Virus record (IMG/VR): IMGVR_UViG_3300034356_001466
Location: 1 to 21,601 of that record
Source of the DNA: a virus
DNA: 21,601 nt
Strand: one strand, 5' to 3'
Both the position numbers and the translations under genes were made by a program. The notes under the pieces are model-generated. The model searched no databases. It was given only the letters and a program-made list of their open reading frames with translations, and was not told the origin of the DNA. This document shows, in pieces, positions 2 to 18,694 of this stretch. The first letter of the stretch is position 1. The number at the start of each line of letters is the position of its first letter.

Positions 2-3000
2 GCTTATTTTAATGGATCATTTGATCAGCAGTTAGAAGCAATTGAAGCAGATACAGAAAGAGTTACTGCAATGTACTTAGAGTCAGTATCTAGCTCAGGA
101 CAAAGTGGTGACACTATAGAAATGCAACCTGACGGTACTGAAGAAATCAGTACTCAGGAAAGAGATCCTATAGACAACGATAAGCGAATTGCGGACTTAA
201 CAGAAGAACAGCAAGATGAGTTGGCTGACATGCTTGCTGAACTTAATAATCAATACGATGATGTCTTAGAAAGAAAGCAAACTATTGCTAAGGTAGTTGG
301 GACTGCTATAGACGCTGTAGCACCTAGCGAGATAATGGGAATGACTGATGCAGCTGCTCAGACAGAAGCTTACACAGAGTGGGTTAAAGACTTACTTACT
401 AAAGTAACAGAGGAAGCAGAAGCTGTTAGGCAAGTTATGGCTGATGATACTTCTTTAGCTCAGAGTGTTTTCTACGACAAGATATCTTATCTTGAGTATA
501 AAGCAGACAATAAAGAAAAGATTGACAAGAAGTTAGCTGAGATTAAAAAAATCAAAGAAGAGAGAAAAGCTGCTGAAACTCCAACTGTAGAAGAAACAAG
601 AAACAATGTAACTGCTAAAGAGAAGTCAGAGGAAACTGGCAAAGAGGTTAGCATTGAAGTTCCAGAGCTGATTCAATCAGATGTAACTCCAGAGTTTGCA
701 CAAGGTCTTACTGCATTGGAAAGTATGCCAAAGAGTAGACTTACAGCAACCGCAAGTCAAGCAGCAGGAGATATTGTTACAGACGAAGAGTACAATACCC
801 AACGTGGTGTTGTTATTCAAAACCTATTAGGAGAAGTTCTAGGTTCTGCTTCCTTGGATTCTGCTTTGGCTAAGATGTACTCTATTATGGAGGCAGCCGA
901 AGTATCAGTAGAAGAGAAAGCAAAAACTTTAGAGTTGATGAAGAAGATTGCAAACAGTGAGCCTGTGCTTGAAGAAGATTACACTCACATGTTTGAGTTA
1001 CTTTTAATCAAAGCAAACCTTGACTTAGCAAAGCTTAAGTTTACAGGTCCCGAAGCAGAAGTTGAGTTACCAGCAATAGTAGCAACACAGGTTGACGAAA
1101 GAACTACCGAAGAGATAGAAAGAACTACTGCCATTCCAAATGTACAACTAGGAACTTTGGAAGGTAAGTTAGTAGAGTATAATGGAGTTCGTGGTACCTT
1201 GGTGATTAGCGAAGGAGGAATTGTAACTGTTGAGACTGAGAATACCATTTACGAGTTAACAGGTGCGACAAAAGAAACCTCTACTCTTGAACATATGATT
1301 CAAGAAGTTGTTTCTGAGATGGATAGTAAAGAAGGTGATGACATTATCTCTGAGACAGAAGTAATGCTTGATAACGTCGAGTATCTGATTGAGACTGATG
1401 CTAAAGGCAACGTAGTAGGACTTAGAGATAAGACAAAGCCTCAAAAGAAAATTACTAACAACAAGTTATTGATTCGTGCTGAGGTTCTTCGTAACCGTTT
1501 AGAGCATCAAGTTATTACTGAGACAATTGAAACTACTCCTGAGTTGGTAGAAGATATTGCACAGGCAGTACAAGAGATACCAAGTGCACAGATAGTTGAG
1601 AATCTATTTAATTTCAACATGACAGACAATGTTGCAAGTGGTATAGACAAACTCTATGAAGACGGTAACAACAACAATCTAACTGAAGCAGAGTTACTAG
1701 AAATAGAACTTTGGGTGATGGATGCTTGGTACAAGTTAGATGACTTGGCAAAAGAATATCCAGAAGATGAGGTATTCCAAAATGCAATTGAGAACTTATT
1801 AATAATCAACAAATTACTTTATAATGGACAACAAAGAAAAAGTACTCGCAAAGCTGGTCCTAAAAAGCCTGCCGAAGCAAAAGAGAGAAGAACTGCTCCA
1901 AAAAAGAAACCAAGCAAAACCAAAAGCAAATCTCCGATAGTTAAAGAGAGTGTGCAGCCCACTCAGTTAACCTTAGATTTTGCTACTCCTGCTCCTGTAA
2001 CTAAGAAAGCAAAGACTAAAAAAGCAGAGGCTAAGATTAGTTTACCTGCAGAACAACCTACTGCTGAAACAAATGTTATTGACACACTAGCAAACAATCA
2101 AAAGATTGTAAGTGAAGTTAAAGTAGAAGTAGCTACAACAGAGGAAGCAAAATCTGAAGTACAGAGTAAGAATCAGATTCTTAATACTCAGAATCTTAAA
2201 ATGCCCATCAGTCCAAATAATCCTGATGCAGGGCATTTGAGAATACAGGAGAAGATTATTCAGTCTATAAACAAAGAACATAGAACAGCTAAGCCAGCTA
2301 TTGTAGATTTGTTTACAATGGTTGAGCAAGTTCTTGGTCCAGAGACTCTAACTCAAATGGAGGCTATCTTTACTGAAGTTCAATTAGGAGTAGACGCTGA
2401 ACGTAAAGCTGTATTGCGCAGTCAGTTCTTAAGTCTATTTCCTGCTAACTTTATGAAACCTACGGCAGCTGCGTATATGTTTGATACTCAGATTGTAAAC
2501 AAAGTTTCTCAGTCTGACCTTAACCAGGTTAACGAAATAAACCTAAACGCTACTGAGGAAGAATTGTATCAATTCAATAAAAACAGACTGGTGCCTGAGG
2601 TTGAGTTGAAGGATGGTAGAAAGATAAAAGATATGCGGGTTAGGCAATCTGAAGGTAAGTTGTTGTTCTTAAGAGAAGATAAGACAGAAGTAGATGGTAA
2701 AGAAGTAACCAATAAAACTTGGGTTACTTTGAGCCAAGTAAAAGATCCTACAAAAGTTCTTCAGTATCCTATTAAAGGTGTGACTCCTATGTCGTTTAAT
2801 GCCTTAAACGTATTGACTTTTACTATGCTTGATAACAAAGGTGAGGTACAACGCTACAATAACGAAGGAGATAAAACTGAGTCAGGAGACAAAGCACTCT
2901 TAATTTACTTACCTACTAGTAAAGCCAAAGCTAATCCAACATCACAACAGTTAGCAATGTCTGGCCTTAGGGGGCAAATAGTAGAAGGTAAAAGAGTAGT

Positions 3001-4261
3001 CCACCAGGTAGAACTTACAGGACCAAGTATAACTACCTCTTTTGTAACTAGAGAAGGAGAGCCAGCACCAACAAACGGAGATTACGAGTTTGAGTTTAGC
3101 ACTGAGACACTAACTCCTGTTGAAGCAACTATGACCCCTGCTGCTGTTATTGAAGACAAAGTAGTGGAGAAGACAATAGCTGTAGAGGCAACTCAAGAAA
3201 AGTCAGTAGCTGCTTTGGAGGCATTGATTGCTAAAGCTAAAACTATACCAGATCCTTCTAAAGAAGGTTACTTAATTGACGGAGAAAGATATGAGCGTCA
3301 GTCAGGCTTCACTAAACGTGTTATGGGTAAGACTCAAGTAGATACAGAAGATTCTGTTATCAACATGGAAAAGGGAGCTGCTGTAGGTAACTTGTTAGAT
3401 ATCATTGGACGTGATGTTCTTGGAGGCCGTACCGTAAAATCTTTGAGTGAGTATATCAAAGAAGCAGAAGGTATGGGTAAATCTTTGAGAGAAGGTAAAG
3501 GATACAAACTTGAGTTTACACAAGAACAGTTTGATGCTTTAGTAGCAGAACTAGAAAGTGTTAAGAAAGAACTTACTCGTCAGGGATACAAAGTATATAC
3601 TGAAGGGCTTGTAATCTATCGTAAGTATAACGCAGAAGAAAAGGTAGCTACAGGTTTTGCTGGTGTTGCAGGTGCTATGGATATTGTAGCAGTAGACAAA
3701 GACGGAGGTGTTCATATCATTGACTTCAAAAACAAGAAGTTTAAGAACACTCAAACGTTCAAGTCAAGCATGTATAACTCCAATGAACGTTTCCCTTCTA
3801 ACATTAGTAAGTGGGGTACGCAGCAAACTGCATACGGTGTATTATCAGGTGACTTTGGTTTACCTATTCGTTCAATTAATATCTTAGCTTTTGCTTCTCA
3901 GTATGAAGAAAGTAATGGAGTTATTACAGTTAATATGTTGAGTAAAGGTAGTGACCAAGTTCCTGTGTTAGCACAGAACAAGAGTGACATTTCTGACTCA
4001 ATTATTAGATTAAAATATGATAGCAAAATTGCTGCACAAATTAATTCACGTACAGTAAAGCCTACTCCTCAACCACTTAACAAGGAAGCTGATAAAGTAC
4101 AACTAGAGACTATCAAAGAAAATGTTCCTGATTTGACTGATTCAGAAGCTAGAAACGCTAGTCTTGTATTATCTTCGCTAGGTATGAATTTAAACAATGT
4201 AAAATCTGGTTTAGATTCTAAAGACGAAAATCCCACCACTAAAAATCCCCCTACCTGTTAA
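2..4261 (+). CDS. Giant virion-associated protein with C-terminal PD-(D/E)XK nuclease-like domain (5' partial)
   Basis: The frame is open to the left edge, so the true start lies outside the window. The first in-window Met is at 71, and residues below are counted from it (1396 aa). The N-terminal half is acidic and helical, with a charged coiled-coil stretch around 130-185 and a small beta-rich, SH3-like patch around 355-405. A Lys/Arg-rich linker covers about 588-660 and contains QLTLDF (632-637). Another beta-rich region spans about 850-1030. The C-terminal part reads as a RecB/Cas4-type nuclease: GAMDIV with D1204, IIDFKNKK with D1218 and K1220, then QQTAY (1251-1255), which matches the QxxxY motif. 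The tail is disordered and ends PPTC. The polymerase gene starts 2 nt after the stop, so the two are surely cotranscribed. I infer a packaged protein acting with the polymerase; whether the nuclease cuts DNA is unknown. Confidence 0.8.
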   Translation, partial: AYFNGSFDQQLEAIEADTERVTAMYLESVSSSGQSGDTIEMQPDGTEEISTQERDPIDNDKRIADLTEEQQDELADMLAELNNQYDDVLERKQTIAKVVGTAIDAVAPSEIMGMTDAAAQTEAYTEWVKDLLTKVTEEAEAVRQVMADDTSLAQSVFYDKISYLEYKADNKEKIDKKLAEIKKIKEERKAAETPTVEETRNNVTAKEKSEETGKEVSIEVPELIQSDVTPEFAQGLTALESMPKSRLTATASQAAGDIVTDEEYNTQRGVVIQNLLGEVLGSASLDSALAKMYSIMEAAEVSVEEKAKTLELMKKIANSEPVLEEDYTHMFELLLIKANLDLAKLKFTGPEAEVELPAIVATQVDERTTEEIERTTAIPNVQLGTLEGKLVEYNGVRGTLVISEGGIVTVETENTIYELTGATKETSTLEHMIQEVVSEMDSKEGDDIISETEVMLDNVEYLIETDAKGNVVGLRDKTKPQKKITNNKLLIRAEVLRNRLEHQVITETIETTPELVEDIAQAVQEIPSAQIVENLFNFNMTDNVASGIDKLYEDGNNNNLTEAELLEIELWVMDAWYKLDDLAKEYPEDEVFQNAIENLLIINKLLYNGQQRKSTRKAGPKKPAEAKERRTAPKKKPSKTKSKSPIVKESVQPTQLTLDFATPAPVTKKAKTKKAEAKISLPAEQPTAETNVIDTLANNQKIVSEVKVEVATTEEAKSEVQSKNQILNTQNLKMPISPNNPDAGHLRIQEKIIQSINKEHRTAKPAIVDLFTMVEQVLGPETLTQMEAIFTEVQLGVDAERKAVLRSQFLSLFPANFMKPTAAAYMFDTQIVNKVSQSDLNQVNEINLNATEEELYQFNKNRLVPEVELKDGRKIKDMRVRQSEGKLLFLREDKTEVDGKEVTNKTWVTLSQVKDPTKVLQYPIKGVTPMSFNALNVLTFTMLDNKGEVQRYNNEGDKTESGDKALLIYLPTSKAKANPTSQQLAMSGLRGQIVEGKRVVHQVELTGPSITTSFVTREGEPAPTNGDYEFEFSTETLTPVEATMTPAAVIEDKVVEKTIAVEATQEKSVAALEALIAKAKTIPDPSKEGYLIDGERYERQSGFTKRVMGKTQVDTEDSVINMEKGAAVGNLLDIIGRDVLGGRTVKSLSEYIKEAEGMGKSLREGKGYKLEFTQEQFDALVAELESVKKELTRQGYKVYTEGLVIYRKYNAEEKVATGFAGVAGAMDIVAVDKDGGVHIIDFKNKKFKNTQTFKSSMYNSNERFPSNISKWGTQQTAYGVLSGDFGLPIRSINILAFASQYEESNGVITVNMLSKGSDQVPVLAQNKSDISDSIIRLKYDSKIAAQINSRTVKPTPQPLNKEADKVQLETIKENVPDLTDSEARNASLVLSSLGMNLNNVKSGLDSKDENPTTKNPPTC

Positions 4262-4263
4262 CA

Positions 4264-7200
4264 ATGAATGCTTGTAGTATAAAAGGAACGCCCTACGAAG
4301 AAGAGTACAGACAGTTTATGTCTGAGGGTCGAATGATATTTGCATGGAATAAAAACAATGAACAACCTCTAGATAAAATAAAAGTAGGTAATGAAGTTGT
4401 AGAAAATCCATTGTACACCGAGTTGATGGCCCATCCTATTACACAAGGTAATAGGACAGAGGCATTAAAAATCATTGCCGAGACATTTCAAAGCGACTTT
4501 ACAAGTAAGTATACTCCAGGAGATAATGGACAGTTTTCTTTAGTTCAAGTTATAGATTACCTACAGCAAAAACAAAAGAGAATCGAGGATGCTTTAGCTC
4601 AGAAAATACAGAGTGTAAACGTAACTACAAGTAAAAGTATTAACTTTTATGAGGCTCAGATTAACGGAACCCCGACAGAGATTCATTTTAGTGATGCTGA
4701 AGGACAAGAAATCTTTGAAACCTTTGAGTACATGCTTGGTGAGTATGGTAGTTGGGCTGAAGTACAGCAACAGTTACTAGGACACAAGAACAACATAATC
4801 TCTAAGATTGATCCCAACAACGCTACTAGTATTGACATTAAACAGTTAAAGGCATTGGTAGAGATATCAGAAAACTTTGAGTTGTTTAGAGATTGGTATG
4901 AGAATCAAGAAGGTGTAGTAGGTATAGAAGAACTTGAAGCTGAGTTAGGAGAGAGTCAAGACTGGAAGACTAAAGAGAAGTCACAGAAAGAAAGAGCAAG
5001 TAAAAGAATCCTTGCACTAGTAACTTCACTGCCATCTTATAGAAAAGCAAGTGTAGGAGAATACAACTTTGCTGAAGAGAGACCATACAAAAGTGATGAG
5101 AAGGTAATAATCCAAGGAACTTTATTAGGCTTACCTAAGTCTGGAGACTTCCAAAAGAATTGGAACTTACTAAGTACAGCTTTATCGGGAATTACCGATT
5201 ATACAAAACAGTATGATGAGATTGCAATCTTAGCAAAAACTCATCCTCAGTTTAACAATCTACTAAAGAAGATTCCTAACCCACGTGTAGCAAACAGTAC
5301 AAAGACAATCAAACAAATTATGTTTGCTATGGGACTAAAGAGAATCTTTAGTAACCCAGAAACAATAGCTGTATCTCTTGACGTAAGTAAAAAAGGTAAC
5401 TCTGTATTTGTTACTCAGCAAATCAAGGGATTCAGAAACATCAAGAACCTGTTCAACCAATTAGACAAAAACTACTTTGCGTACAACAAAGACTATGCAA
5501 TGGTAGGAGACACTGGTACAGAGTTTAACGTAGATAAATTTGTCTCTGATTTTTCAAATCTGTTTTCTAATAGAGTTGCTATAGAGGCTTTAAGTACTAA
5601 AGACCTAAAAGCTAAAAAAGAACTTATTAGAGGTTTGTTTACTGGCGCTAATAAAAGTTACTACATCAATGAGTTTACTAAGTTGCTAAATGCACTAGGA
5701 GTAGGGTTATCTAATAAAGAGTACTTACTGCCTTCCAACATTGGTACAACAACTGAGATGTATACTGAGTACTTTGCAAGTTTCTCAAACATCTTTGCCA
5801 AGTTAAGATTAACTGCTCAAATCAATAGTGAACTTGTAAAGAACAATAGACCTACAATTAGTATTAAAGGTCCTTTGGCTTATATAGCAAATGCTGATGC
5901 GGCTGTTTTTCCTGATGGAAAGAATCCTTCTGAGGATGTTAAAGCAGCAGCGCAACAACTTGTTTCTGATAGAAAAACTCCATTCAAGATAGAAGGAGTA
6001 TTTGGTTTCCTACAAAAGAAGCAATCAGAATTAACAAGACTAGTAGAGTATATTAGTTCTTATGATATAGAACTTCGCCCTAGTTCTTACTTAACTGCAG
6101 AAGATAAGAAGAAGTTTATAAGAGGCCCATGGTTTTACTTGACTCAAAACACAAAAGCTGTTAATGAGGCTAGTAACTATGAAGAGTTAATTACAACTCC
6201 AGGTTTTGAAAGATTTGATTACCGCAAGAATCCAGATATTCTTGGATCTGTTTGGTTGACTCGTCTATTTGGTTTACCTAAAACTGTAAGGGAGATTGAA
6301 AGTCGTCCCCTCAATAGTTATAAGAAACAAGAGAAGTTTGGACTTCCTGTAAATCTTGAAATCAGAGACTTCAATGGAATAGAGTTTAAGAACATGGGAG
6401 AAAAGGTAGGTAAAACTACCACTAACCTACATCCTGGTGATAAAGTTATGCAGGACTTTATGAGTTTCTTTCAAAGCACAGAGATGGAGAACATCCGTTT
6501 TGGAGATAAGTCAAGTTCATTTAGCATTTACTTCAGTAACCCTGTACTTGGAGAGAAAATATATGTTCCTATCTCTACTAGTAGATTAGAAGGAAAGCCT
6601 GATGGTGACGCAGAAATAAGTGCTAAACAGCAATTCCTAGATACAATGACAGGGTATCTGCAATCTGAGTTCACTAGAGCCTTGGATTTGATTACTAACC
6701 CTCAGTCAGCAAATACTACTTATCAGAAGTACGGTAAGAACTTATTTATATTCGGAGAGATTTTACCTGACATAGCAGGCAAAGTAAAAAATGCAGAGAC
6801 AAGAGAGCAACTAGTTAGTTTGTACGAACTTGCTGTACAATCACTTCCTGCAGCTTTAGATAACTATTTTAAGAAAGAAGCAAGTAACCTTGTACGTACT
6901 ATGGTTAAGACTATGTCTTTGCCTATAGACAGACAATCTAGACCTACTGATGAAAGAACTAGATTATTGAGTACAGTTGCGTCTTTGAATAAGTTAAAGT
7001 TTGTTAACAGTCAGTTACTTCCAAAAGGCTATGACTTAAAAGTAACTGCAGATAATCTACAGTATCTTGCTGAGTTGTACATAAAGAATGGATTTATAAA
7101 CAACGTAGAGTTTATGAAATTCTTTGTAGGTGACTTAGCAAACTTCAATAAGACAGACAAAGATGCTCGTGAGGTATTTAAACGTATTCCTTTTACTTCT

Positions 7201-10200
7201 TCTCCTGGAACTCCTCCATATTGGGATAGCGCTTTACAAGAATTCTTTAAAGAAGATGCTAACCAAGATTCTTTAAGTAGAATTTATACAGGCACAGCAC
7301 ACGCATTCAGTCCTATTGTAAGAACTGTAGTATACAATGATGTACTTACGTTTGAAGCAGATGAGTTTGAGAAGTATAAAGAAGTATATAACAGTGGTCT
7401 ATGGGATTCTCTTTCAGAAAACGAACGTTATGAGTACGATGCCTACGTAAACAAAAGTGACGAGGAGGCAAATGCTCAAGGTGTAGTTACTTTAGATTTC
7501 TACAGAAACTATCTTATTTCTATTGAAGGCTGGAGCGACGCACAGGAAAAGTCATTCAATGACCAAGTAAGGATAGCACAGATTACTCAAGACCTAAAGA
7601 ACAATCCTGCTAACGCACAAGAGTTAATAGAGGAGCGTAGGGCACTTATTGAAAAGACAGGTAACATACCATTCCCTCCCCTTAAGTTGGGACACTATGG
7701 ACCTATAGTAGAAGATCCAAAGCTAAATGCTTTACACAAGTATTCTTTGGTTCCACTAGTACCAAGTGTAACCATTGGCAAACAACTTGAGAAACAGTTA
7801 GAGTTAATGTATCAAAATAGAGTTGACTACTATACTTTCAAATCTGGCTCTAAGATGGCTAACTACGGAGAGATGTTAGATTTCTACAAAGTGGCTGAAG
7901 GTGCTGATGGTAATCAAATGAAGGTAATGAATGATGCTCTTTCTGATAGGAACGTAACATCTATTCACTTACATAACCTAAGACAGCAGCAGTACCAAGC
8001 ACCTAAGTTTAAAGGAGAAAGTACTTTATCAACTCAGATGATGAAGTTGGTATTTGGAGATTTCTATGAGTTTGGTGAACTCTCTACTGATTTTACAGAA
8101 CCTACTAGACAGTATGTAAGTAGTTTGTACGACAGGTTTAAGACTTCGTTGAACGACTTAGTTAAGTTTGAGCAAGTACGTCTAGAAAGAAAACTAGGAG
8201 TAACTAGAAACGCTGAAGGTAAAATAGAAAACATCAATCAACTTCAGTTAGCAAATTACCTTGCAAAAGAGTTTGAAAAGAAAGAAGTATCAGAATCACT
8301 TCGTAAGTATATCCAAGTAGATGATAAAGGTAACTTTAAGTATCCACTAGACGCTATCAACGACAGAAGTCAGATAGAGTCTATGTTGTTGAATCTAATC
8401 AACAGCAAAGTTATTAGTCAAAAAATCTTTGGAGAAAGTTACATCCAGATTGCTGGTTCTGGATTTGAAGCATCACGTTTTGCTAAACCTACTAAAGAAC
8501 AGTTAGAGAAGTACGGTGCAAACGACTTACAGTTCTATAGAGTAGATCCTGTTACAGGTGAGACTCTTCCTATGGAAGTAAGAGTAGGATTCAATCCTGA
8601 GAAACATAGTGGTTTACTTAAACTTATGTATAAGGAAAAACCAGTGGGTACTCTTGAGAATCTAAATGAGATTCTTAAGTCAGACAATCCATTGGCTCTT
8701 AAGTTTAAGGAGAAGTACAAAGAACAGTTGACTATGGTTGGAGTACGTATTCCTGTACAAGGATTCCAATCAATGGAACATGTAATTGTAAAAGAGTTTC
8801 TTCCAGAGTCTGCAGGTGCAATTATGATTCTTCCTGCACAAATTGTAGTTAAATCAGGTGGTGACTATGATATTGATAAACTTACTTTCTTTGAAACAGC
8901 ATATGACGAAAGCGGTAACGTTATCGATAAAGCATTTGACTTAAAAGACTACGAGAGTAAGTTAACTGAGCAGAGAGAACTTAAGAAAGAGAAACAACGT
9001 TTGTTGGGAATCCTTAAAGTAATCAAGGATGAGATGAACGAGAACGAGGCGTATGCTCAAAGAGAAGACTTAAAGAAGGAATTAAAGAAGTTAGACGCTG
9101 AGGTAAAAAAATCACTAAAGAATCTTAACGGCCTACTAAATAGAGAAGAGTTCACAAAAGAAGACAAAGAAAAAGGACTTGACGAATTGTCTGAGAGTAA
9201 GTATGCTTTAATGAAAGTAGTAGCTGACTTAAGAACATTCGATGGAAAGAACGATACTAAAGCCTTGAATGTAATGTCTGCTCTTAGAAAGGACTTAGCA
9301 GAAGTTAATAAGAAGATTAATCAAGTAGACGATTATAAAAAAGGCATAACCAACAACCTAGTACAAACTCTAAAAGAAGTATTGTCTATTGGTGAGTTGT
9401 ATGACCATCTAGTAGTTCCTAACAACAATAACATCCTTACTCAGTACACAGGTAAGAGTAGACCAATCAGCACCACTCAGGTGTTTAATCCTATGACCTC
9501 TTGGAGAATCTACGCAGAGAACATCTTGTCTAAAGATGCTTTGGGTATCGATGCTAAGATTAATACGATGCAAAAGGAGTTTCAAAGAGCTAATCTAAAG
9601 TTCAATAGTAAACTCCTCAATGCCTACTATTTTCCATCAAACAAAGATGCTGAAGGTAACATACAACTAGGAGGCAAGAAAGACCAAGCAGGTAATCGTA
9701 TATCTAAAATTCTAAGTGAGTTTATCAATGGTCACGTAGATATTGCAAAGGAAGATTGGATTATCCTTTTGGGTATGAACCAAGAGACAAGTCCTCTAGC
9801 GCATGCTATGATTCTTTCAGGTACTCCTGTGAAGACAGTTATTGACTTCATTAAGTCTAAGCCAATACAATTGGTATTGGAGTTATCTAATCGTCCTGTA
9901 ATCAACCAAAAACTAGACAAGGCATACTTTAGCAAAAACTCCGCTATTGTCTCTCTGATAAAAAGTATAGCATACGAGATTACAGATCCAGATATTTCTA
10001 AAGAACTACAGTTAATAGCTAAGAATCAGACTGACAATCAAGTAAAAGGGAAGAAAGCATTAGGACAATACATTGAAACCTTATTGAGTAATCCTAAGAT
10101 AAACAAGCACTTAACTAACTTTAATCCAGAAGTAACACTAGCGCCTGAGGAGAAAGCCTTGAGAGACTTAGCCTACTACCTTCAGTTTGGTGTAGTTGTA

Positions 10201-11760
10201 GCACAACAAGAAAGTTTAAGAGAACTTACTAGTTTAGCTGATTTTAACACAGCCAACTACAGAACTACTTTCCAAAGTGTAGAATTGTTGGACAAACAAA
10301 GCACATTGAAGAGTGCATTTAACGGAGAGGCAATTGACTTTATGTTTAAAGACTCTGCCTTGGCACAGTTTAACGTAGGTTCTTTTACTTTAGATTTAAT
10401 GAGTGAGGCTTTTCCTCTTTCTGATTCTAAAGAAGTACATACTCAATTGAATAAGATGCTTGAGTTCTCAGAGTTAGTCTCTGAAGACGAAAGAAGAGAA
10501 GCAATCACTCAGTACAAAAACAACCTATTGTATACTCACGTGGCTATGAATGCTCAGGGTGAAAATGGTTCTTTGCTTGAGTATTACAGAGGGAAAGATG
10601 GATTGTTTGTTAAGAACATTGAGAACAATATGGCTCAACGTTTTGAGAAGTTAGCTTCAAATCCCGATTTAAGAGGAAACTTCTTATTCAATAACTTATA
10701 CATAGAAGACGATAACATCTTAGATAGAGAGTTTAGTTTCCATTTAAGAAACATTGAAAGTGTTGAGTATGGTAAGCAGTACAGAGAAGCATTCCTAGAA
10801 GGGCTTAATCACGCTGATGTAGAGGTTAGAAGTTTCTTTAAAGACCTAGCATTGGGTTCTTTTATGCAGAACGGAGCTCACTATAGAAGTAGGGATGTAT
10901 CTTCAGTAGTTCCTTTTGAGGCTTATGTAGAATACACTGCAACAGCTTATAACGAACTAATAGACATGAAGGACAACAATCCTGAAATGTTTAGCAAGTA
11001 CTTAAGTCTAGTTGGATTTGCTACTGTGTTATCCAGAGCCAACGGTTCTAAACCTCTAATTGCTCTTCCGTCTTATCTTTCTAAATATCACAAAGAAGCC
11101 ATTGATGCATTCTATCAATTGACTCCTGAGTTAGTAGAAAAAGTAACTGCACTAGAGAATGCAGTTCTAGGGAAAGAAGTAAGTCCAGTTACAAAACTAG
11201 AAGGACAGATGACATATTCCTATGGTAATGAAAAACGTCCTGATGTTATTGCTGCTACTACTTTTGATGCAATTCTTAGTGGAGAAAGAACTGCTACGAC
11301 TCGTTTTGAAAAGGACGGTAAATTAGACTATTGGAAAAGTGCTAAAGTAGGAGACATCATTACTTGGAAATCAGGAGACGGTCGTACTGTAGATGTAGAA
11401 GTAACTAAAGCATTACATCCTTTAGTTGGTTCTGGGAAGACTCCAGAGATATGGTCAAAGTTAGAAGGATGGTCAATAGGTCGTTTTAATACAAAAGTAA
11501 AACCTCTCATAAACCAAGCATATCAAATTGAATTTAAGTTAGCTAAGAGTATAGATGCTACCGATGCAAATAGTTTAAACCAAGATATGTTTGGTCCAGC
11601 AGAAATTCCTACTGATGTAATACCTCCTCAGAATCCTACTCTTCCTACTACTGATAAAGGTCCAGTTAATCTTAAGAACAAGTTAAACCCAGGTCAACCT
11701 GGTAATGATGAGGGAAACCTAGATGGCTTGGGCTTTGAAGAGGTCAGCTGCGATGTATAA
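4264..11760 (+). CDS. crAss-like single-chain DNA-dependent RNA polymerase (virion-packaged), C-terminal ASCH/PUA-like domain
   Basis: This 2498-aa protein is a DNA-dependent RNA polymerase of the crAss-like type, in which one chain carries both double-psi barrels. What I see: R1495-I-P-V-Q-G, then about 30 residues on SGGDYDIDK with D1534, D1536 and D1538. These resemble the RxP and NADFDGD elements of cellular beta-prime and would hold the catalytic Mg2+. Downstream are segments I recall from crAss-type polymerases: NNLVQTLKEVL (~1695), LGIDAK (~1760), and VDIAKEDWIILLGMN (~1824). A charged coiled-coil insertion covers about 1560-1690. Residues ~2322-2427 look like an ASCH domain (LSGERTATTRF, KVGDIITW, GWSIGRF). 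The tail is Pro/Gly-rich and ends EEVSCDV. In the crAss-like phage phi14:2 the homologue is packaged in the virion and transcribes early genes; the same role is inferred here. The start is set by the upstream stop 2 nt away; no Shine-Dalgarno is seen. Confidence 0.9.
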   Translation: MNACSIKGTPYEEEYRQFMSEGRMIFAWNKNNEQPLDKIKVGNEVVENPLYTELMAHPITQGNRTEALKIIAETFQSDFTSKYTPGDNGQFSLVQVIDYLQQKQKRIEDALAQKIQSVNVTTSKSINFYEAQINGTPTEIHFSDAEGQEIFETFEYMLGEYGSWAEVQQQLLGHKNNIISKIDPNNATSIDIKQLKALVEISENFELFRDWYENQEGVVGIEELEAELGESQDWKTKEKSQKERASKRILALVTSLPSYRKASVGEYNFAEERPYKSDEKVIIQGTLLGLPKSGDFQKNWNLLSTALSGITDYTKQYDEIAILAKTHPQFNNLLKKIPNPRVANSTKTIKQIMFAMGLKRIFSNPETIAVSLDVSKKGNSVFVTQQIKGFRNIKNLFNQLDKNYFAYNKDYAMVGDTGTEFNVDKFVSDFSNLFSNRVAIEALSTKDLKAKKELIRGLFTGANKSYYINEFTKLLNALGVGLSNKEYLLPSNIGTTTEMYTEYFASFSNIFAKLRLTAQINSELVKNNRPTISIKGPLAYIANADAAVFPDGKNPSEDVKAAAQQLVSDRKTPFKIEGVFGFLQKKQSELTRLVEYISSYDIELRPSSYLTAEDKKKFIRGPWFYLTQNTKAVNEASNYEELITTPGFERFDYRKNPDILGSVWLTRLFGLPKTVREIESRPLNSYKKQEKFGLPVNLEIRDFNGIEFKNMGEKVGKTTTNLHPGDKVMQDFMSFFQSTEMENIRFGDKSSSFSIYFSNPVLGEKIYVPISTSRLEGKPDGDAEISAKQQFLDTMTGYLQSEFTRALDLITNPQSANTTYQKYGKNLFIFGEILPDIAGKVKNAETREQLVSLYELAVQSLPAALDNYFKKEASNLVRTMVKTMSLPIDRQSRPTDERTRLLSTVASLNKLKFVNSQLLPKGYDLKVTADNLQYLAELYIKNGFINNVEFMKFFVGDLANFNKTDKDAREVFKRIPFTSSPGTPPYWDSALQEFFKEDANQDSLSRIYTGTAHAFSPIVRTVVYNDVLTFEADEFEKYKEVYNSGLWDSLSENERYEYDAYVNKSDEEANAQGVVTLDFYRNYLISIEGWSDAQEKSFNDQVRIAQITQDLKNNPANAQELIEERRALIEKTGNIPFPPLKLGHYGPIVEDPKLNALHKYSLVPLVPSVTIGKQLEKQLELMYQNRVDYYTFKSGSKMANYGEMLDFYKVAEGADGNQMKVMNDALSDRNVTSIHLHNLRQQQYQAPKFKGESTLSTQMMKLVFGDFYEFGELSTDFTEPTRQYVSSLYDRFKTSLNDLVKFEQVRLERKLGVTRNAEGKIENINQLQLANYLAKEFEKKEVSESLRKYIQVDDKGNFKYPLDAINDRSQIESMLLNLINSKVISQKIFGESYIQIAGSGFEASRFAKPTKEQLEKYGANDLQFYRVDPVTGETLPMEVRVGFNPEKHSGLLKLMYKEKPVGTLENLNEILKSDNPLALKFKEKYKEQLTMVGVRIPVQGFQSMEHVIVKEFLPESAGAIMILPAQIVVKSGGDYDIDKLTFFETAYDESGNVIDKAFDLKDYESKLTEQRELKKEKQRLLGILKVIKDEMNENEAYAQREDLKKELKKLDAEVKKSLKNLNGLLNREEFTKEDKEKGLDELSESKYALMKVVADLRTFDGKNDTKALNVMSALRKDLAEVNKKINQVDDYKKGITNNLVQTLKEVLSIGELYDHLVVPNNNNILTQYTGKSRPISTTQVFNPMTSWRIYAENILSKDALGIDAKINTMQKEFQRANLKFNSKLLNAYYFPSNKDAEGNIQLGGKKDQAGNRISKILSEFINGHVDIAKEDWIILLGMNQETSPLAHAMILSGTPVKTVIDFIKSKPIQLVLELSNRPVINQKLDKAYFSKNSAIVSLIKSIAYEITDPDISKELQLIAKNQTDNQVKGKKALGQYIETLLSNPKINKHLTNFNPEVTLAPEEKALRDLAYYLQFGVVVAQQESLRELTSLADFNTANYRTTFQSVELLDKQSTLKSAFNGEAIDFMFKDSALAQFNVGSFTLDLMSEAFPLSDSKEVHTQLNKMLEFSELVSEDERREAITQYKNNLLYTHVAMNAQGENGSLLEYYRGKDGLFVKNIENNMAQRFEKLASNPDLRGNFLFNNLYIEDDNILDREFSFHLRNIESVEYGKQYREAFLEGLNHADVEVRSFFKDLALGSFMQNGAHYRSRDVSSVVPFEAYVEYTATAYNELIDMKDNNPEMFSKYLSLVGFATVLSRANGSKPLIALPSYLSKYHKEAIDAFYQLTPELVEKVTALENAVLGKEVSPVTKLEGQMTYSYGNEKRPDVIAATTFDAILSGERTATTRFEKDGKLDYWKSAKVGDIITWKSGDGRTVDVEVTKALHPLVGSGKTPEIWSKLEGWSIGRFNTKVKPLINQAYQIEFKLAKSIDATDANSLNQDMFGPAEIPTDVIPPQNPTLPTTDKGPVNLKNKLNPGQPGNDEGNLDGLGFEEVSCDV

Positions 11761-11790
11761 TTGCATTCGTTTAAAAATCTATTAAATTTG
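11761..11790 (+). promoter_or_regulatory. Putative Bacteroidota-type promoter upstream of the third giant gene
   Basis: TTG at 11761-11763 lies 19 nt before TAAATTTG at 11783-11790, a full match to the TAnnTTTG -7 element used by Bacteroidota housekeeping sigma factors. It fills almost the whole 34-nt gap after the polymerase stop. Transcription would begin about 5-7 nt downstream, at or beside the ATG at 11795, so a transcript from here would be leaderless or nearly so. AT-rich sequence can produce such matches by chance. Confidence 0.45.
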
Positions 11791-11794
11791 TATA

Positions 11795-14700
11795 ATGTCT
11801 TGTATTGCTAAAATAAAATCACCTGTAAGTGGTAAGTCTATAAATAGTCCTGCGTACTATCAACTAACTTCTTTCTTTTCTCAAGCAGAGGGAAAGAAGG
11901 TATATGAGGCTATGACCACAGATACCTTCAAGGCCAACTTTGGTTTTGATTGGACTAAACCACATATCGGTGCTAGCACACGGGTAAACTACGCAGGTGA
12001 GCCTAAGATTCGTGAGATTAACCAACACCTTAAGTTGGGAATGTCTGAAGAAGAACTACAAGCAGCAGAACAGATTGAAGAGATTGGAGTACTTGGTTAT
12101 TTGGGAGAAACGTTTAGTTCTCCTAAAGCACTTGAGAACATAGGACTAGAGATTCAGTTGAATCCTAAGTTTGACATGATTAACTATGAAGTCATTTCTG
12201 TAGGAAACAGATTTCAGTTGTCAGTTAAACCCAAGGTAGGAGAAAAGAAACAGTATCCAATAAGTAGAGAGATTCTTGAGAAGTTTAAGTTTCCTCAGTT
12301 TGTTATTGACTCAGTACAGGATTTTAACAACGCAACATTCAAAGAGTTAATAGATAACCTAGCTAGTAACTCAGAGTTAGAACCTTTCCAACAAGAGATG
12401 CTTAAGAAGCTATCTCCTTTGATGTCAAAGAATCCTACACTGAAGTTAGCATTGTTTGATGACCTCAATGTAACTGACGAGTATCAGCGTTCGTTTTACG
12501 ACCCTAAGACAAACACAGTTTACATTGCAAAATCCACTCACACTCCTACTGATAATAAGTTTTTGGCTAGAGAGATTATCCACGAAGCAGTACATGCTTT
12601 CACAATCTCCATTCTAAATAATCCAAGAAACGCACAAGAAGTACAGTTTGTACAGGAGATGGAACAGTACTTTCAAAAGTACAGAAGCATAAATCCTGAA
12701 CTACAAAGTTACTATGGTCTTAAGAACGTAGAGGAGTTTGTATCTGAGTTCCTGTCTAATCCTTACTTCAGAGAGCAACTACAAGTAGCAGAGGCACAAA
12801 AAGAAGCATCTGCAGGAATCATTGAACGGATGTGGAATAGCATCAAAGGATTCCTTAACAGATACATCTTTGGAGACATGGGTTCTACCATGTTTGACCA
12901 AGTACAGGAAACCCTAGATGATTACTTTGACTACTTGATGACACTACAGGATTATCCAGAAAGTCCATCAGAACATCAAGTTAGGTTTAGTCAGCCTTTT
13001 CAGAACAGAGAACAGAAGCCAACAATCTATAGTAAGCTAACTGACTTCTACGAATACATTGATAGTAACGTAGATAGTACAATTTGGAACCAGTTAAGTC
13101 AGAACCTTACTGACATTGGTGGTAAAGAAACAATTGAATTAAGAGCAATCAGTCGTCTGCAAGATACCTTTGGTAAGATTTCTACATCGGATATTACAGG
13201 AAGTTTGATTGCATCTGGGCAGTTTGCAGTTGAGTTAAGACAGTTTACATCTAAGTTAGAAGAGGATTTAGAAATCTTAACTAGAGCTACATCATACTAT
13301 AGGCCTGATGTACTCCTTAAGAAGTACAACAGTGCTATTGCAATTGCACAGAGTATCAGAGAACAGATTGAGGGCTTCCAAAATAACCTAGTAGACCAAT
13401 TAACTTTTGCTACCTTCTCAGACTACGAAACTAAGCAACTTGTAGAAGTTGCTCAGAAACGATTAGACTTGCAGAAAGAAGTAGCAAACATTGAAGACTA
13501 TCGAGAGATTATTGACGATGAGTTAAAGAAAGCTAAAGCAGCTGTAGATGCAATTGAAGACAGAGCTAGACGTGCTATGCTTGATCCAGTAGCAGAAGTA
13601 GCTTCTCGTTTATTTACTAAGATTGCTGAGGACATGAAGAGTCCTGAGCATCCTCTTAGAAAAGAGTTAGCAGACTTGCTAGAGAAAAAAGCATACTACG
13701 AAAAGGTTGGTAACAAGAAACTACTACTTGATGTTGATAAACAAATTGTAGATGTAAAAAAAGCACTAGCATTTGCACCTACTCCTGAAAACATTAGAGC
13801 CTTATTAAACTCTTCTATGGACCAATCAATGGCCAATGAGAACATGTTTACTAGGTATCTAAACGTAGGGGGCTTTTCAGGTGTACCTATTGTAGATATT
13901 GTAAATGCCTTTATTAATGCACACACCACAGATGCAACTAACGATAACTTAGAAAAAGATACTAAGATTAGAGAGATTGAAGAACGTGTGGCTGCGAGAA
14001 ATCGTAAGAAAGGAATTGGTAGAAATGTTCTGCAAAGTGTAAAAGGACAATTTACTGTTAAAACTTCTAGCCTTAAGGACAAGTTTGAAGGATTCTTTAG
14101 AGTAGTTCCTATAAAGTATTACGATAAGAAAGGCAATGTCAAGATAGTTACTCAGAAAGTGTACAACACTCCTATGAAGGAGGCTGAGTTTCAAAATGAC
14201 TTAGGAGATTTGCAACATGCTTTGTACAAAGCACGTAGAACTGGAGAAGCTGATAAGATTGAAGCGGCTGAAAAAGCGTTACAAACATTCTTAGATGACT
14301 ACTCACAACGTCAGTTTGCAGATGACTACTATGAGGCAGAGAAGTTATTAAGTGATGACGCTAGAGAAGCACGTCAGGAGTTACTTAATGAAATAGAGAA
14401 TTATAGTAGTGTCTTTGGGGATGAGGATTTGGATGTACTTAGAACTAACTCTGTTAGAGGTTCTAAGTCAGAGAACGATCCTACCATGCGAGAAATAAGA
14501 GCAGCTAAGCGTAGGGCTTATGTGAGATTAGGTTCTATCTATAACGAAGATGGTACTGAAAAACCTATTGGAAGTAAAGAACGTAACATAGCTGAGTCTA
14601 TTGTTGCTTACAACAAAGCACGTAAGGAGTTAGATGTTGTTGAATTTGTTATTGGAGAAGAGACTCTAAACAAATTTAATCAGATTAAAGACCAGTTTGT

Positions 14701-17700
14701 TAGAAGAATATCTGAACTTAAATCTCAAGTTAGTAGTTTACAAGACACATTAGATGCTGCTGTCATAGCTAACGATTTATCTCAGGCTGAAGCAATTCAG
14801 AATCTTATATTCAACAAAAAAGTAGAGTTAGAAGCTGAAATTAAAAAGCAATCAGACTGGCTTGATGCAAACAGTAGAGTTGAAATTTTACCTGAGTTCT
14901 TTGAAAAGCAGCAAAACTTAAGTGACCAGATTAAAAACATTCTTCTTAAGTACGGAGAGAATCCAGAAGTTACTGAAAAGTATCAAAGATTATTTAGCGC
15001 AGTTAAAGGTTTCAGAGACCAAGACGGGACTATACAAGGTAGTCTAGTTGCAGAAGGACTGACTAAGACTATTAAGGATATTGAACAGTCTATTGAGGAT
15101 TTAAAGAAGCAAATTAAAAAGGATAGCAACATATCTGATGCAGATCAAAATGCTTTAAAGGCTTTGTTTAGTGAACTCTACAATTTGCAGTCAAAAGTAA
15201 ATACTCCTTATTACACAGAGACAGTAGAAACAATTAAACATAAACTAGAGGCAGACTTAACTGCTGAGCAGAAGACAGACATATTCAATCAGGCTAACAA
15301 AGAAGCTGATGCTTTTATGTCTAACGGAAACTTGCTGACTTTAAACCAACTTAGGTTATTAAGTAGTGAGAACTTCCAACCTGAAGAATACTTTGTAGGT
15401 AGAAACGCAGAAGACTTTGAAAGTCAAGAGAGTGACAAAGAAGCAATAGTGTCTATGTTTAAAGAGATACTTCTTAGGAAGTACTTGAATGAACAGTTAA
15501 GAGGGACAGATTGGTACAAGAATAACCACGTTGCTATTACCTACGAGGTGAAGACAGGAAACATGATTGTGTTTTTTGATGGCACATCCAAACCAGAGAT
15601 GAGAGAGGTTACAGAGATGCGACCTATTTACATTTGGAGAAAGACCATTCCAAACAATCAGAAGTATATCAAAAGAGATAGTCCTAGCTTCGACTGGGCT
15701 ACTCCTAGAATACGTACCGAGTATAAAAACCCTAACTATAAATTCTTAGGACAAGCACGCCCCCGTACTGACGGTAAAGACAGCAAGTATGTTAACGAGG
15801 AGTACACTAAACTAAGTGACGAAGAAAAAGGTATCATGAATGATATTCTTGCAATCTATGAAGATGACCAGCGCTCTATGCCAGTGTCTCAGAGATTGAA
15901 AGGATATGTAATGCCTAACGTATCTAAAGAAAGTAAAGAAGAGACACTAGATTACTTCAGACCTTTCTATAAATTGTATAGCGCCATTAGGTCTTTAAAG
16001 GTAGCATTCAAAGAAAACGTTGTAGGACAGGGAGATGAAGAAATAGAAGTAGACATTAGAGAAGCACAGAAGAAAATTAGTAGAAAGACCAATGTACGTT
16101 TGATTAAGACAAGGTTCAAAGAGCCACTCGAGGAAGGAGCTTCTACTGATAATATCTTAGGTGCATTGCATGCATACTCAATGTATGCTGCTGAGTTCAA
16201 AGGATTACAGAAAGCATTACCTACAGTTTTTGCTATTAGAGATACTTATGCTGCTAAGGGAAAAGAAGCCCGCGCAAAAAATCCTCAAGACGCTGCAACT
16301 GTTTGGCAGAAATTTAAAAGAGCTTCTGGCAAGTTAGTAGACTCTGTAGTAGGAGGAGACGAAAGTCAGAAAGAACTTATCCTTACTCAGATAGATGATC
16401 AGATTGCTAGATTTTTCTATGGTGCTTCTCTTAAAACAGGAAACAATGCAGTAAGTAGAGTGATTGAGCGTTTGGTTAACCACATGACTAATACATTCCA
16501 AAAGTATGTGTTAAAGTGGAATCCTATGCGTGTAGTTAAAAACATAACTAGTAACATACTTAACGCTGTAGGAAACACTTCTAAGTTTGGTTTAAGTAAA
16601 AAAGATATGTTGGCAGGTGTAGCAAAAGCTGCTTACCATAGAGCTGAGATTATAGGAATAGAGCAAGGTATGACTAAGATGACTCCTTACGTTGCCAAGT
16701 TAATCTATTTCCGAGCCATCCCTCTTGCCGACCCTACTGATTTATACCGTACAATTAACTCAGGATTTGTAACACGCTACCTAAACGGAGATAACTATAA
16801 TGCTCAAATCTTTTCTTCTAACGAAGCTATATCTACAATGGGTATCTACGAAGCGTTTATGGCAAAAACCTATGTACCCTACGAAGGCCCTAACGCAGCC
16901 CCTGGAACAAAGATTAAACTTCAAGATGCCTATGACTACATAAACGGTAAGTTAGTTCCTAAGGAAGGAGTATTTGGAATTAATCGCAGTAAACTAAATG
17001 AGTTAGTTGCTGAACGAAATGACTTTATTATTTCATACTTGCAGACCAATGGAGTTGACAACTACGACAAACTTTCTACGGTAAAAAAGGTAGAGTTAGG
17101 AAAACAACTTGCAGCTAAGTTTGACACTAGGATTAAAGCTGAAGAAGCATTTATCTCTAGTAGAGTTGACAAGTTAAAAGAAGTAGAGCGTGAGATGAGA
17201 GATAAAATTTTCCAACTTTATACTGCAACTCAAGGTAACTACACGAGACGTGGAAGATCTTATTATCAAAGTGTAGTGTGGTTAAAAGCACTCATGTCGA
17301 TGAAAGCTTGGTTATTCCCACAAGCAAGCAATATGTATGGTGGTAAGAAGTTTTCTATAACTACAGGTAGAATGGATCAGGGTATGTACTCTACATTCTT
17401 AGGTGCTGTTCGTAGAAAAGCTTTGGGGGTAAGAAGGCAAGGTATGAGTTTGGCTATGGACTACCAGTTTACTGAAAGAGAGAAGGAAGCTACTCAGCGT
17501 GTAGGTTGGAACATGGCCAATGCAAGTGTAATGTACTTACTAAATTACTATATAGTAAACTCAGCTATGCAGGCTCTTAGAGGAGCAGGTGAAGATGACG
17601 ATTACAGTGATTGGGCACAGTACTTGATTGCTCAATTAGCACTGGGTATGTTTGATGAAAATGCAGGTTCATTAAATCCAATATTTGCACCAGCTATTCA

Positions 17701-18694
17701 GTACAATAAATTTAAAACAGACCCACTTAAGAAACCTTACGAAGAAAAAGGAGTAGCAGGTAGAATTTTAAGTATGGCTTATGTTGCAACATTTGGACAA
17801 CAGATTGTAACTATAGATAAGATTTTAGATGGCTATGGTCTTTTAGGTGAAGCTGTTGCAAGTATTCCAGGACGTACTAAAAAGTGGTACGAACGTGGTG
17901 CAAGCTTAGGTGATGTTGGAGAAATATTTGATGAACCATACTACGAAATGAGTAGTGATGGTAGCGGATATAGATTGGCCAATCCTGCTATACCTTTCAA
18001 TACAGGTAGAAGTAAGTTTGCAGTAGGATTCAGTAAAGTTATCGGTATGGAAGTAGGTATTAAATCTATGGGTAATACAGGTTATAGACTTGCACAACAA
18101 GTTAAGTTTGTTCCTGTTCCTGGAGTTACTAACCCATATGGCAGACTTAATGAAATTAACAGTAGGATGGATGATATTTGGGATAAGTGGAGACTCAAGA
18201 GTGCTCAGGATATCAAAGCCATTGATGAAGCTGTTACAAGTAAAACTGACCCAACTACAGGAAAAACAGAAATCGTAGTAGACGAACAAGCAATCAAAAA
18301 CATTGGTGGTTTAACTACTATGTCTAAGGAAGACAGAGCAAAGTTTGTAGTAGAGTATGTAAAACTAGCTCAAGAAAAAGATGCTCTACTTGATCCAAAA
18401 ACAGGCTATTCTTTCTTAAGGTCATACGAAGAAAACCTACGTGTGTCACAGCAGCTAGGACAAAAAGAAGCTGCACAGAGAGATAAGTTTCTGAAAAAAG
18501 TAACAGGATATAAGAAGCCTAAGTTTGAGATTGGTCCTAAAGGAAAAGAAACATTGAAAGAAGCAAGTCAGTACAGAAAAATGCTTAAGGAAGAGTTAAA
18601 CACTAACACAAGTTACTATGACTCTATTTACAATGCCAGTCCTGAAGATAGGGAATTGATGGACGAGATAGATAGAAATCTACCACCTGAATAA
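11795..18694 (+). CDS. Giant virion-associated protein with HExxH metallopeptidase-like domain and coiled coils
   Basis: This is a 2299-aa protein. The N-terminus (MSC...IKSP) resembles that of the polymerase (MNACSIKGTP). Residues ~215-345 look like a zincin metallopeptidase: REIIHEAVHAF with H263, E264 and H267, followed by VEEFVSEFLSNP, where E314 or E318 could be the third zinc ligand, a layout seen in phage polyvalent proteins. Long charged helical stretches at about 470-640 and 940-1180 predict coiled coils. The C-terminal region has KWNPMRVVKN (~1570) and hydrophobic or amphipathic segments near 1910-1955 (MYLLNYYIVN, WAQYLIAQLALGMF), weakly reminiscent of large polyvalent protein-associated domains. 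The end is highly charged. Position next to the polymerase and nuclease-like giants suggests a third cargo protein, perhaps for ejection, membrane passage or protein processing. The peptidase activity is inferred from the motif only. No cysteine was found beyond C3. Confidence 0.8.
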   Translation: MSCIAKIKSPVSGKSINSPAYYQLTSFFSQAEGKKVYEAMTTDTFKANFGFDWTKPHIGASTRVNYAGEPKIREINQHLKLGMSEEELQAAEQIEEIGVLGYLGETFSSPKALENIGLEIQLNPKFDMINYEVISVGNRFQLSVKPKVGEKKQYPISREILEKFKFPQFVIDSVQDFNNATFKELIDNLASNSELEPFQQEMLKKLSPLMSKNPTLKLALFDDLNVTDEYQRSFYDPKTNTVYIAKSTHTPTDNKFLAREIIHEAVHAFTISILNNPRNAQEVQFVQEMEQYFQKYRSINPELQSYYGLKNVEEFVSEFLSNPYFREQLQVAEAQKEASAGIIERMWNSIKGFLNRYIFGDMGSTMFDQVQETLDDYFDYLMTLQDYPESPSEHQVRFSQPFQNREQKPTIYSKLTDFYEYIDSNVDSTIWNQLSQNLTDIGGKETIELRAISRLQDTFGKISTSDITGSLIASGQFAVELRQFTSKLEEDLEILTRATSYYRPDVLLKKYNSAIAIAQSIREQIEGFQNNLVDQLTFATFSDYETKQLVEVAQKRLDLQKEVANIEDYREIIDDELKKAKAAVDAIEDRARRAMLDPVAEVASRLFTKIAEDMKSPEHPLRKELADLLEKKAYYEKVGNKKLLLDVDKQIVDVKKALAFAPTPENIRALLNSSMDQSMANENMFTRYLNVGGFSGVPIVDIVNAFINAHTTDATNDNLEKDTKIREIEERVAARNRKKGIGRNVLQSVKGQFTVKTSSLKDKFEGFFRVVPIKYYDKKGNVKIVTQKVYNTPMKEAEFQNDLGDLQHALYKARRTGEADKIEAAEKALQTFLDDYSQRQFADDYYEAEKLLSDDAREARQELLNEIENYSSVFGDEDLDVLRTNSVRGSKSENDPTMREIRAAKRRAYVRLGSIYNEDGTEKPIGSKERNIAESIVAYNKARKELDVVEFVIGEETLNKFNQIKDQFVRRISELKSQVSSLQDTLDAAVIANDLSQAEAIQNLIFNKKVELEAEIKKQSDWLDANSRVEILPEFFEKQQNLSDQIKNILLKYGENPEVTEKYQRLFSAVKGFRDQDGTIQGSLVAEGLTKTIKDIEQSIEDLKKQIKKDSNISDADQNALKALFSELYNLQSKVNTPYYTETVETIKHKLEADLTAEQKTDIFNQANKEADAFMSNGNLLTLNQLRLLSSENFQPEEYFVGRNAEDFESQESDKEAIVSMFKEILLRKYLNEQLRGTDWYKNNHVAITYEVKTGNMIVFFDGTSKPEMREVTEMRPIYIWRKTIPNNQKYIKRDSPSFDWATPRIRTEYKNPNYKFLGQARPRTDGKDSKYVNEEYTKLSDEEKGIMNDILAIYEDDQRSMPVSQRLKGYVMPNVSKESKEETLDYFRPFYKLYSAIRSLKVAFKENVVGQGDEEIEVDIREAQKKISRKTNVRLIKTRFKEPLEEGASTDNILGALHAYSMYAAEFKGLQKALPTVFAIRDTYAAKGKEARAKNPQDAATVWQKFKRASGKLVDSVVGGDESQKELILTQIDDQIARFFYGASLKTGNNAVSRVIERLVNHMTNTFQKYVLKWNPMRVVKNITSNILNAVGNTSKFGLSKKDMLAGVAKAAYHRAEIIGIEQGMTKMTPYVAKLIYFRAIPLADPTDLYRTINSGFVTRYLNGDNYNAQIFSSNEAISTMGIYEAFMAKTYVPYEGPNAAPGTKIKLQDAYDYINGKLVPKEGVFGINRSKLNELVAERNDFIISYLQTNGVDNYDKLSTVKKVELGKQLAAKFDTRIKAEEAFISSRVDKLKEVEREMRDKIFQLYTATQGNYTRRGRSYYQSVVWLKALMSMKAWLFPQASNMYGGKKFSITTGRMDQGMYSTFLGAVRRKALGVRRQGMSLAMDYQFTEREKEATQRVGWNMANASVMYLLNYYIVNSAMQALRGAGEDDDYSDWAQYLIAQLALGMFDENAGSLNPIFAPAIQYNKFKTDPLKKPYEEKGVAGRILSMAYVATFGQQIVTIDKILDGYGLLGEAVASIPGRTKKWYERGASLGDVGEIFDEPYYEMSSDGSGYRLANPAIPFNTGRSKFAVGFSKVIGMEVGIKSMGNTGYRLAQQVKFVPVPGVTNPYGRLNEINSRMDDIWDKWRLKSAQDIKAIDEAVTSKTDPTTGKTEIVVDEQAIKNIGGLTTMSKEDRAKFVVEYVKLAQEKDALLDPKTGYSFLRSYEENLRVSQQLGQKEAAQRDKFLKKVTGYKKPKFEIGPKGKETLKEASQYRKMLKEELNTNTSYYDSIYNASPEDRELMDEIDRNLPPE

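Follow-up and report, generated by a model that had tools for sequence, protein, structure and literature searches.

A virus record of 21,601 bases (IMG/VR virus record IMGVR_UViG_3300034356_001466, labelled G000; called the window here at its full length) carries three giant open reading frames (ORFs) head to tail, designated pieces A, B, and C, which sequence comparison identifies as the virion RNA polymerase (RNAP) block of a crAss-like phage. The three hold 4 cysteines in 6,216 residues, one per facing end. In relatives, evolution has fused A and B, B and C, or all three, and comparison of fused with separate pieces indicates that a cysteine pair and a peptide bond are alternatives at each joint. 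The best explanation, to which we assign a probability of about 0.68, is that A, B, and C form a cargo chain tied by disulfides, which would be packed and ejected as a thread.

Results

Piece A (positions 2 to 4261, plus strand, as for all features of the block given below; 1,419 amino acids, open at the 5′ end) has its sole cysteine as the last residue (codon at 4256 to 4258), facing piece B (4264 to 11760; 2,498 amino acids). Piece B has only Cys 4 (4273 to 4275), at the N terminus facing A, and Cys 2496 (11749 to 11751), at the C terminus facing piece C (11795 to 18694; 2,299 amino acids). In piece C, Cys 3 (11801 to 11803), at the N terminus facing B, is the only cysteine, and the C terminus has none. 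All four positions were verified in the window ORFs, in agreement with the original prediction that the only cysteines of these consecutive giant proteins lie at their facing ends (4256 to 11803). Its further claim, that such placement is unlikely to be accidental, was also upheld: four uniformly placed cysteines would land one per facing end within 4 amino acids with P of ∼4 × 10^-12, or ∼2 × 10^-5 if the frequencies of terminal cysteines in the remaining same-strand ORFs of the loci described below are used, and the pattern was replicated in relatives, which is a stronger test than the window probability. The terminal cysteine of A is invariant in alignment A3, Cys 2496 of B is the sole invariant column in the last 550 amino acids (alignment A7), and Cys 3 of C is invariant in alignments A2 and A8. 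A full-length A of 2,284 amino acids, found in locus L002, where B is 98% identical to window B, again has its sole cysteine as the last residue.

Piece B is a giant virion RNAP like gp50 of crAss001, a phage with Bacteroides intestinalis as host, and g066 of phi14:2, a phage of Cellulophaga baltica. A tblastn search with window B matched 77 phage records, including crAss001 gp50, and among the matches listed (60 of 77) most are named as crAss-like or belong to Crassvirales genera. The catalytic motif is of the DxDxD type (8857 to 8877; B residues 1532 to 1538, with G1532, D1534, D1536, and D1538 invariant in alignment A1), a polymerase motif described in PMC7886860. Piece C is g065/gp49-like, its residues 261 to 538 matching phi14:2 g065 with 26% identity (E value of 7 × 10^-13). 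Piece A adjoins B on its 5′ side and was matched by phmmer to 8 of 69 A proteins, near relatives only; no similarity to g067 or gp47 was found by phmmer, and A is equated with these proteins by position, not by detectable sequence similarity. Searches of Pfam and PHROGs gave no convincing match in A, B, or C. The known blocks, gp47/gp50/gp49 of crAss001 and g067/g066/g065 of phi14:2, are like the window in the order A-B-C, in the DxDxD motif of B, and in their terminal cysteines, with B and C related by sequence.

In phi14:2, the cysteines are at position 1797 of 1797 in g067, 3 and 2179 of 2180 in g066, and 3 of 1421 in g065; in crAss001, they are at 2339 of 2341 in gp47, 5, 1334, and 2404 of 2412 in gp50, and 5 in gp49. 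The crAss001 gp47 gene lies on the strand opposite gp50-gp49 and the pattern is still present, so the cysteines follow the proteins and not gene adjacency; in crAss001 and similar phages, the rule is independent of gene order and strand. A gene-junction artefact is ruled out by this strand independence. The original prediction had also allowed for relics of a polyprotein cleavage site, and we weighed this together with a nucleotide accident at gene junctions. The genes do abut in the window, as a relic would have it; however, in crAss001 and other phages A is encoded on the strand opposite B and C, no conserved pair survives in fused proteins, unbroken chains lack these residues (see below), and other same-strand ORFs of at least 400 amino acids in the loci carry a terminal cysteine at only 13 of 151 N termini and 11 of 206 C termini. 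We therefore reject this origin, which retains next to no probability.

A first set of 17 loci, found via B and reaching down to 34% identity, had a cysteine at every facing end present and none in the interiors. For a broader survey, loci were taken from seven viral-contig scans, for which the peptide patterns were Cys-free and interior to the proteins, plus phage records; 317 loci were collected, 265 of them with the polymerase core and 184 non-redundant. For N-terminal cysteines, any ATG within the first 60 codons was accepted, and facing ends, outer ends, and controls were treated alike. Once an N-terminal cysteine had been noticed in L136, L145, L153, and L207, the A piece was looked for on the opposite strand in the first three and assigned by hand in L207. 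In the 184 loci, a cysteine was present at 389 of 394 facing ends (A C terminus, 65/67; B N terminus, 67/67; B C terminus, 128/130; C N terminus, 129/130) versus 3 of 285 outer ends (A N terminus, 0/49; AB N terminus, 0/78; BC or ABC C terminus, 0/38; C C terminus, 3/120), with a Fisher P of 1 × 10^-182 if relatedness is ignored. Two of the three Cys-bearing C termini of C are inner ends of four-piece chains, and the third belongs to a broken gene. Set apart from these counts were B N termini with A outside the locus (11 of 13 with cysteine, both misses, L239 and L302, being broken genes) and B C termini for which no C was found (8 of 8). Without deduplication (265 loci), the values were 85/90, 89/90, 194/197, and 195/197 for the facing ends and 0/71, 1/99, 0/43, and 3/181 for the outer ends, in the same order. 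The expectation that homologues keep the terminal cysteines in otherwise Cys-free chains held in its first part; interiors are Cys-free in the window and in 53 of 181 loci, and other relatives hold internal cysteines.

Where pieces are fused, the conserved cysteine pair of the joint is missing. Among 27 phage records, 12 of 12 Suoliviridae and 1 of 7 Steigviridae (cr108_1) fuse A and B, and 6 of 6 Intestiviridae fuse B and C. In phages of the AB|C class, the conserved terminal cysteines are those of the AB C terminus and the C N terminus. The only cysteine among the 4,287 AB residues of Flavobacterium phage Fpv3 is the last but one, and of the two among the 4,551 AB residues of cr1_1, one is in fourth place from the end; cr273_1 is an exception, with the last cysteine 50th from the AB end. 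Phages of the A|BC class, to which crAss002 belongs, have cysteines at the A C terminus and the BC N terminus and none at the BC C terminus. Nine full A-B-C fusions, single proteins of ∼4,700 to 7,400 residues (L181, L182, L184, L189, L202, L209, L222, L230, and L281), have no terminal cysteine, and six of them (L181, L182, L184, L189, L202, and L281; 4,700 to 5,640 residues) have no cysteine at all. Compared with separate pieces, their C part was matched in 9 of 9 and their A part (to A proteins or AB heads) in 8 of 9, the exception being L189. No conserved vestigial pair was evident at fused joints. A cysteine occurs somewhere in the wide joint zone in 17 of 77 AB fusions and 12 of 38 BC fusions, and cysteine density there is at or below background (AB, 30 per 34,650 amino acids versus 263 per 263,918 in the rest; BC, 15 per 15,200 versus 299 per 159,949). 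When whole chains were scored, 129 of 133 had cysteines exactly as their architecture predicts (ABC, 9/9; A|BC, 24/24; AB|C, 58/60; A|B|C, 38/40), with 25 fits counted despite one unreadable end and 51 of the 184 loci not classable; the misfits are L126, L168, and L170, with cysteines 24 to 50 residues from the C end, and L191, a four-piece chain.

These distributions bear on the idea that each terminal cysteine is an independent tag by which a piece docks to, or is modified for, a third virion component. Nearly every separate piece of the multi-piece chains has at least one such cysteine, as a tag would require; single-piece chains have none, however, outer ends almost never have one, and middle pieces have two. 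A packaging or docking tag, as the original prediction had considered, is thus disfavoured, and a generic modification site leaves the pairing of the cysteines unaccounted for; we hold explanations of this type to be very improbable.

Cuts at unusual places are flanked by a new cysteine pair in L191, L197, L207, and L084. The C piece of L191 is split into two parts (1,167 amino acids with Cys 4 and Cys 1166, followed by 1,308 amino acids with Cys 4), and in L197 the first cut lies inside B, judged by profile coordinates. L084 has an extra piece of 1,052 amino acids with cysteines near both ends plus one internal. In L207, a 710-residue fragment ending in cysteine precedes a chain of 5,053 residues that has Cys 3 and three cysteines in its interior and none at the end. 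The breaks of cr108_1, bajarod, L034, L302, and L239 have no cysteine and look like introns, insertions, or frameshifts. As a separate observation, residues 65 to 778 of the L207 chain (L207:2147-17308), which lie before the polymerase, are 46% identical to the separate L084 piece that follows the polymerase (L084:4408-7581), and they also resemble part of a post-polymerase piece in L286 (L286:18305-26071); this likeness points to domain shuffling inside the cargo chain.

Several other apparent exceptions could be followed up individually. The N-terminal cysteine of C is at residue 9 in L156; L191 and L084 are four-piece chains; and the polymerase gene of L239 and L302 is broken into two frames. 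A start reading MAC lies upstream in another frame in L314, and the cysteine lies upstream of the ATG in L012 and L017. In L305, the next ORF (940 amino acids) was taken as unrelated because this locus already has B fused to C, and the 891-amino-acid ORF that follows in L281 is under the length limit and showed no similarity to A or C pieces. The opposite-strand ORF chosen by automated assignment in L022, L038, and L056 is not the A piece. The annotated starts of p-crAss, crAss002, and bajarod were judged too early.

To account for relatedness, a FastTree tree of the polymerase core was built from 183 loci, on which the joint states require at least 8 changes for A/B (blind labels) and 9 for B/C. 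At the A/B joint, 144 of 145 blind labels agree, as do 5 of 5 independent supported pairs (4 of 5 in some random pairings, with none contrary); because the median sign-test P is 0.0625 (range, 0.0625 to 0.125), this joint alone falls short of 0.05. At the B/C joint, 166 of 167 labels and 7 of 7 independent supported pairs agree (P = 0.016). With partly hand-set labels, the independent pairs agree in 6 of 6 (A/B) and 7 of 7 (B/C) cases. The prediction was fixed before a hold-out scan of bacterial genome assemblies, which yielded 23 loci. All 11 new scorable loci fit at every readable end, four as AB|C (L321, L326, L327, and L328) and seven as A|BC (L330, L331, L333, L334, L335, L337, and L339); L322 fits too and was left uncounted, its partner being under the length threshold. 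Left out were L320, L323, and L338 as duplicates, L324 (no core), and L325, L329, L332, and L341, which run off the contig at the needed end. L340 has neither a 900-amino-acid partner nor a C-terminal cysteine and looks cellular. The assemblies into which crAss-like contigs of this series (L320 to L342) were binned carry labels for Bacilli, Lachnospiraceae, Sphaerochaeta, and an archaeon, which would reflect binning error or unexpected hosts.

The composition of the ends speaks to the chemistry of the joint. Exactly one cysteine is present in the terminal 15 amino acids at 381 of the 389 ends (B C terminus, 127/128; C N terminus, 123/129; A C terminus, 64/65; B N terminus, 67/67), and most facing ends have no histidine, a composition that fits a single disulfide at each joint better than it fits a metal site. 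Were two chains to meet at a shared metal site, or at a cluster, paired conserved cysteines would also result, and unbonded cysteines might likewise clasp the ends non-covalently; with nearly always one cysteine per end and few histidines, though, two ligands per joint are too few for an ordinary zinc site, and we find such a clasp improbable. The last 70 residues of B (11548 to 11757; model residues 481 to 550), which bear Cys 2496, are predicted to be a flexible tail (AlphaFold2 predicted local distance difference test [pLDDT] score of 30 to 46). In the predicted structure of the N-terminal 500 amino acids of C (mean pLDDT of 77), Cys 3 lies just before the first strand of a domain modelled with fair confidence; structure comparison of this region gave no match at an E value of 0.001. 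The flexible tail cysteine of B and the prestrand cysteine of C fit, in these models, a flexible arm that would hook onto the next protein.

Some further features were observed in the window and the loci. Piece C contains the sequence HEAVH (12581 to 12595; H263, E264, and H267 invariant in alignment A2), which we take to be a zincin-type metalloprotease motif; a family search of this region gave no match. Downstream of the block, the window encodes a protein with DUF285 repeats and a weaker match to PKD (19079 to 20713), as well as a holin-like protein (21091 to 21510). The window itself contains none of the terminase, portal, and capsid genes that would mark membership of the order Crassvirales. 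In two Intestiviridae, another cargo-region protein (L120:1490-3763 and L127:1456-3129) has a cysteine 11th and 8th from the C terminus, respectively, in a comparable sequence context (RCGG), and its neighbour has no N-terminal cysteine. Reading TAG as glutamine lengthens the long reading frames by at least 35% in 35 of 317 loci, so that stop-codon reassignment, which is described in PMC7886860, is likely there.

Discussion

We propose that a single linear cargo chain, running from the N to the C end in the order A-B-C, would consist of these three consecutive pieces and be packed in the virion with the RNAP. The two cysteines flanking each gene break, one per side, would form an interchain disulfide that restores covalent head-to-tail continuity, equivalent to that of a fusion protein. 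The bond would presumably arise inside the producing cell or upon release from it. Its reduction in the cytoplasm of the host would be possible and is not needed, because the fused versions have nothing to reduce. As a weaker step of the proposal, the linkage may serve to pack the pieces at a 1:1:1 ratio and to eject them, always in the same order, as a single thread down the narrow tail. Extended to the group, and with slightly less confidence than for the chain itself, we think it probable that crAss-like phages with the block deliver one covalent thread, a cargo of ∼5,000 residues cut at variable positions into 2 to 4 genes on either strand, with each cut re-joined by a disulfide. Of the head-to-tail disulfide linkage suggested in the original prediction, the linkage is strongly supported by the presence of the cysteine pair at broken and not at fused joints, and the disulfide itself is inferred.

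The same interchain disulfides might serve assembly, through 1:1:1 co-packaging or ordered portal stacking, and not an ejection thread. This main rival, co-packaging in a fixed ratio, shares all of the comparative cysteine evidence, and the volume estimate in PMC10172136, which takes six copies each of three RNAP-associated proteins as an example, fits a fixed ratio. Non-covalent docking, however, could give both ratio and order, and the near-strict replacement of a peptide fusion points to the need for a covalent link that can bear load; we consider a role in assembly alone unlikely, if the least so of the alternatives to the disulfide-tied thread.

Several points weigh against a disulfide-tied thread. 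The cytoplasm in which the virion is assembled is reducing, and many of the hosts are anaerobes of the gut, conditions that leave no obvious moment for the bond to form. The bond is inferred from sequence, and the proposal does not explain what would keep the pieces of A|B|C phages from mispairing (A to C or B to B). A phage thioredoxin was considered as partner enzyme and rejected: of 40 contigs, 6 have one, a full fusion among them, and its presence is not linked to the split state. Many gut relatives hold internal cysteines, up to 7.3 per 1,000 amino acids, the terminal ones being kept nonetheless. In L126, L168, and L170, the cysteine is 50th, 29th, and 24th from the C end, respectively, and not at the end, the tails being hydrophilic; in the hold-out set, the polymerase ORFs of L336 and L342 have neither a C-terminal cysteine nor a partner of at least 900 amino acids. 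Across lineages, A pieces were matched to one another by position, with no similarity found between distant ones. The crAss001 cryo-electron microscopy study did not resolve gp47, gp49, and gp50 (PMC10172136), and the polymerase of phi14:2 is reported to be active in vitro (PMC10136315, a review), so that linkage may not be needed for catalysis.

Known systems offer partial parallels. In the crAss001 virion, in which gp47, gp49, and gp50 (262.5, 154.5, and 276.9 kDa, respectively) were detected by mass spectrometry, interchain disulfides are reported for the gp57 dimer and for tail hub and ring proteins (PMC10172136). Those structural disulfides join folded subunits, whereas here the extreme ends of the cargo would pair, substituting for a peptide bond. 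The virion RNAP of N4, gp50 (3,500 amino acids), is likewise giant and has no cysteine, as have its neighbours gp51 and gp52; unlike the three separate chains of the window, it is a single chain without terminal cysteines. In P23-45, the virion RNAP is covalently joined to a giant delivery protein, the tail tape measure, by gene fusion, and its authors raise the possibility that fusions of this kind link translocation with transcription (PMC10770324); the words cysteine and disulfide are absent from that text. A structure of the phi14:2 polymerase is available (6vr4). The idea that a Cys-free interior protects the terminal pair is not favoured, as six of the nine full fusions and the N4 virion RNAP hold no cysteine; cysteine depletion looks like a property separate from the terminal pair, and the Cys-free fusions and N4 gp50, gp51, and gp52 suggest exclusion of cysteine from ejected proteins.

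In the available parts of the literature on the crAss001 and phi14:2 blocks, the terminal-cysteine rule and its link to fused and split states are unmentioned, as are the cysteines of these proteins in the accessible portions of PMC10172136 (its disulfide table being outside this scope), PMC10136315, PMC7886860, PMC8954989, PMC10770324, and PMC8042965. Among the matches listed in a literature search, no paper describes cysteine or disulfide linkage of these proteins; most subscription papers and bioRxiv preprints lie outside its coverage.

Crassvirales have been called the most abundant human gut viruses, and the crAss001 structure study asks for further work on the ejection of cargo proteins and DNA through tail constrictions of <50 Å, which gp47, gp49, and gp50 must pass (PMC10172136). 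The terminal-cysteine rule provides a sequence guide for correcting start sites and gene models. If the proposal is true, a covalent A-B-C thread would account for the order, ratio, and continuity with which the cargo is ejected, might in part explain the variable protein boundaries of the polymerase genes in one group (PMC7886860), and would represent a natural design principle for splitting giant proteins.

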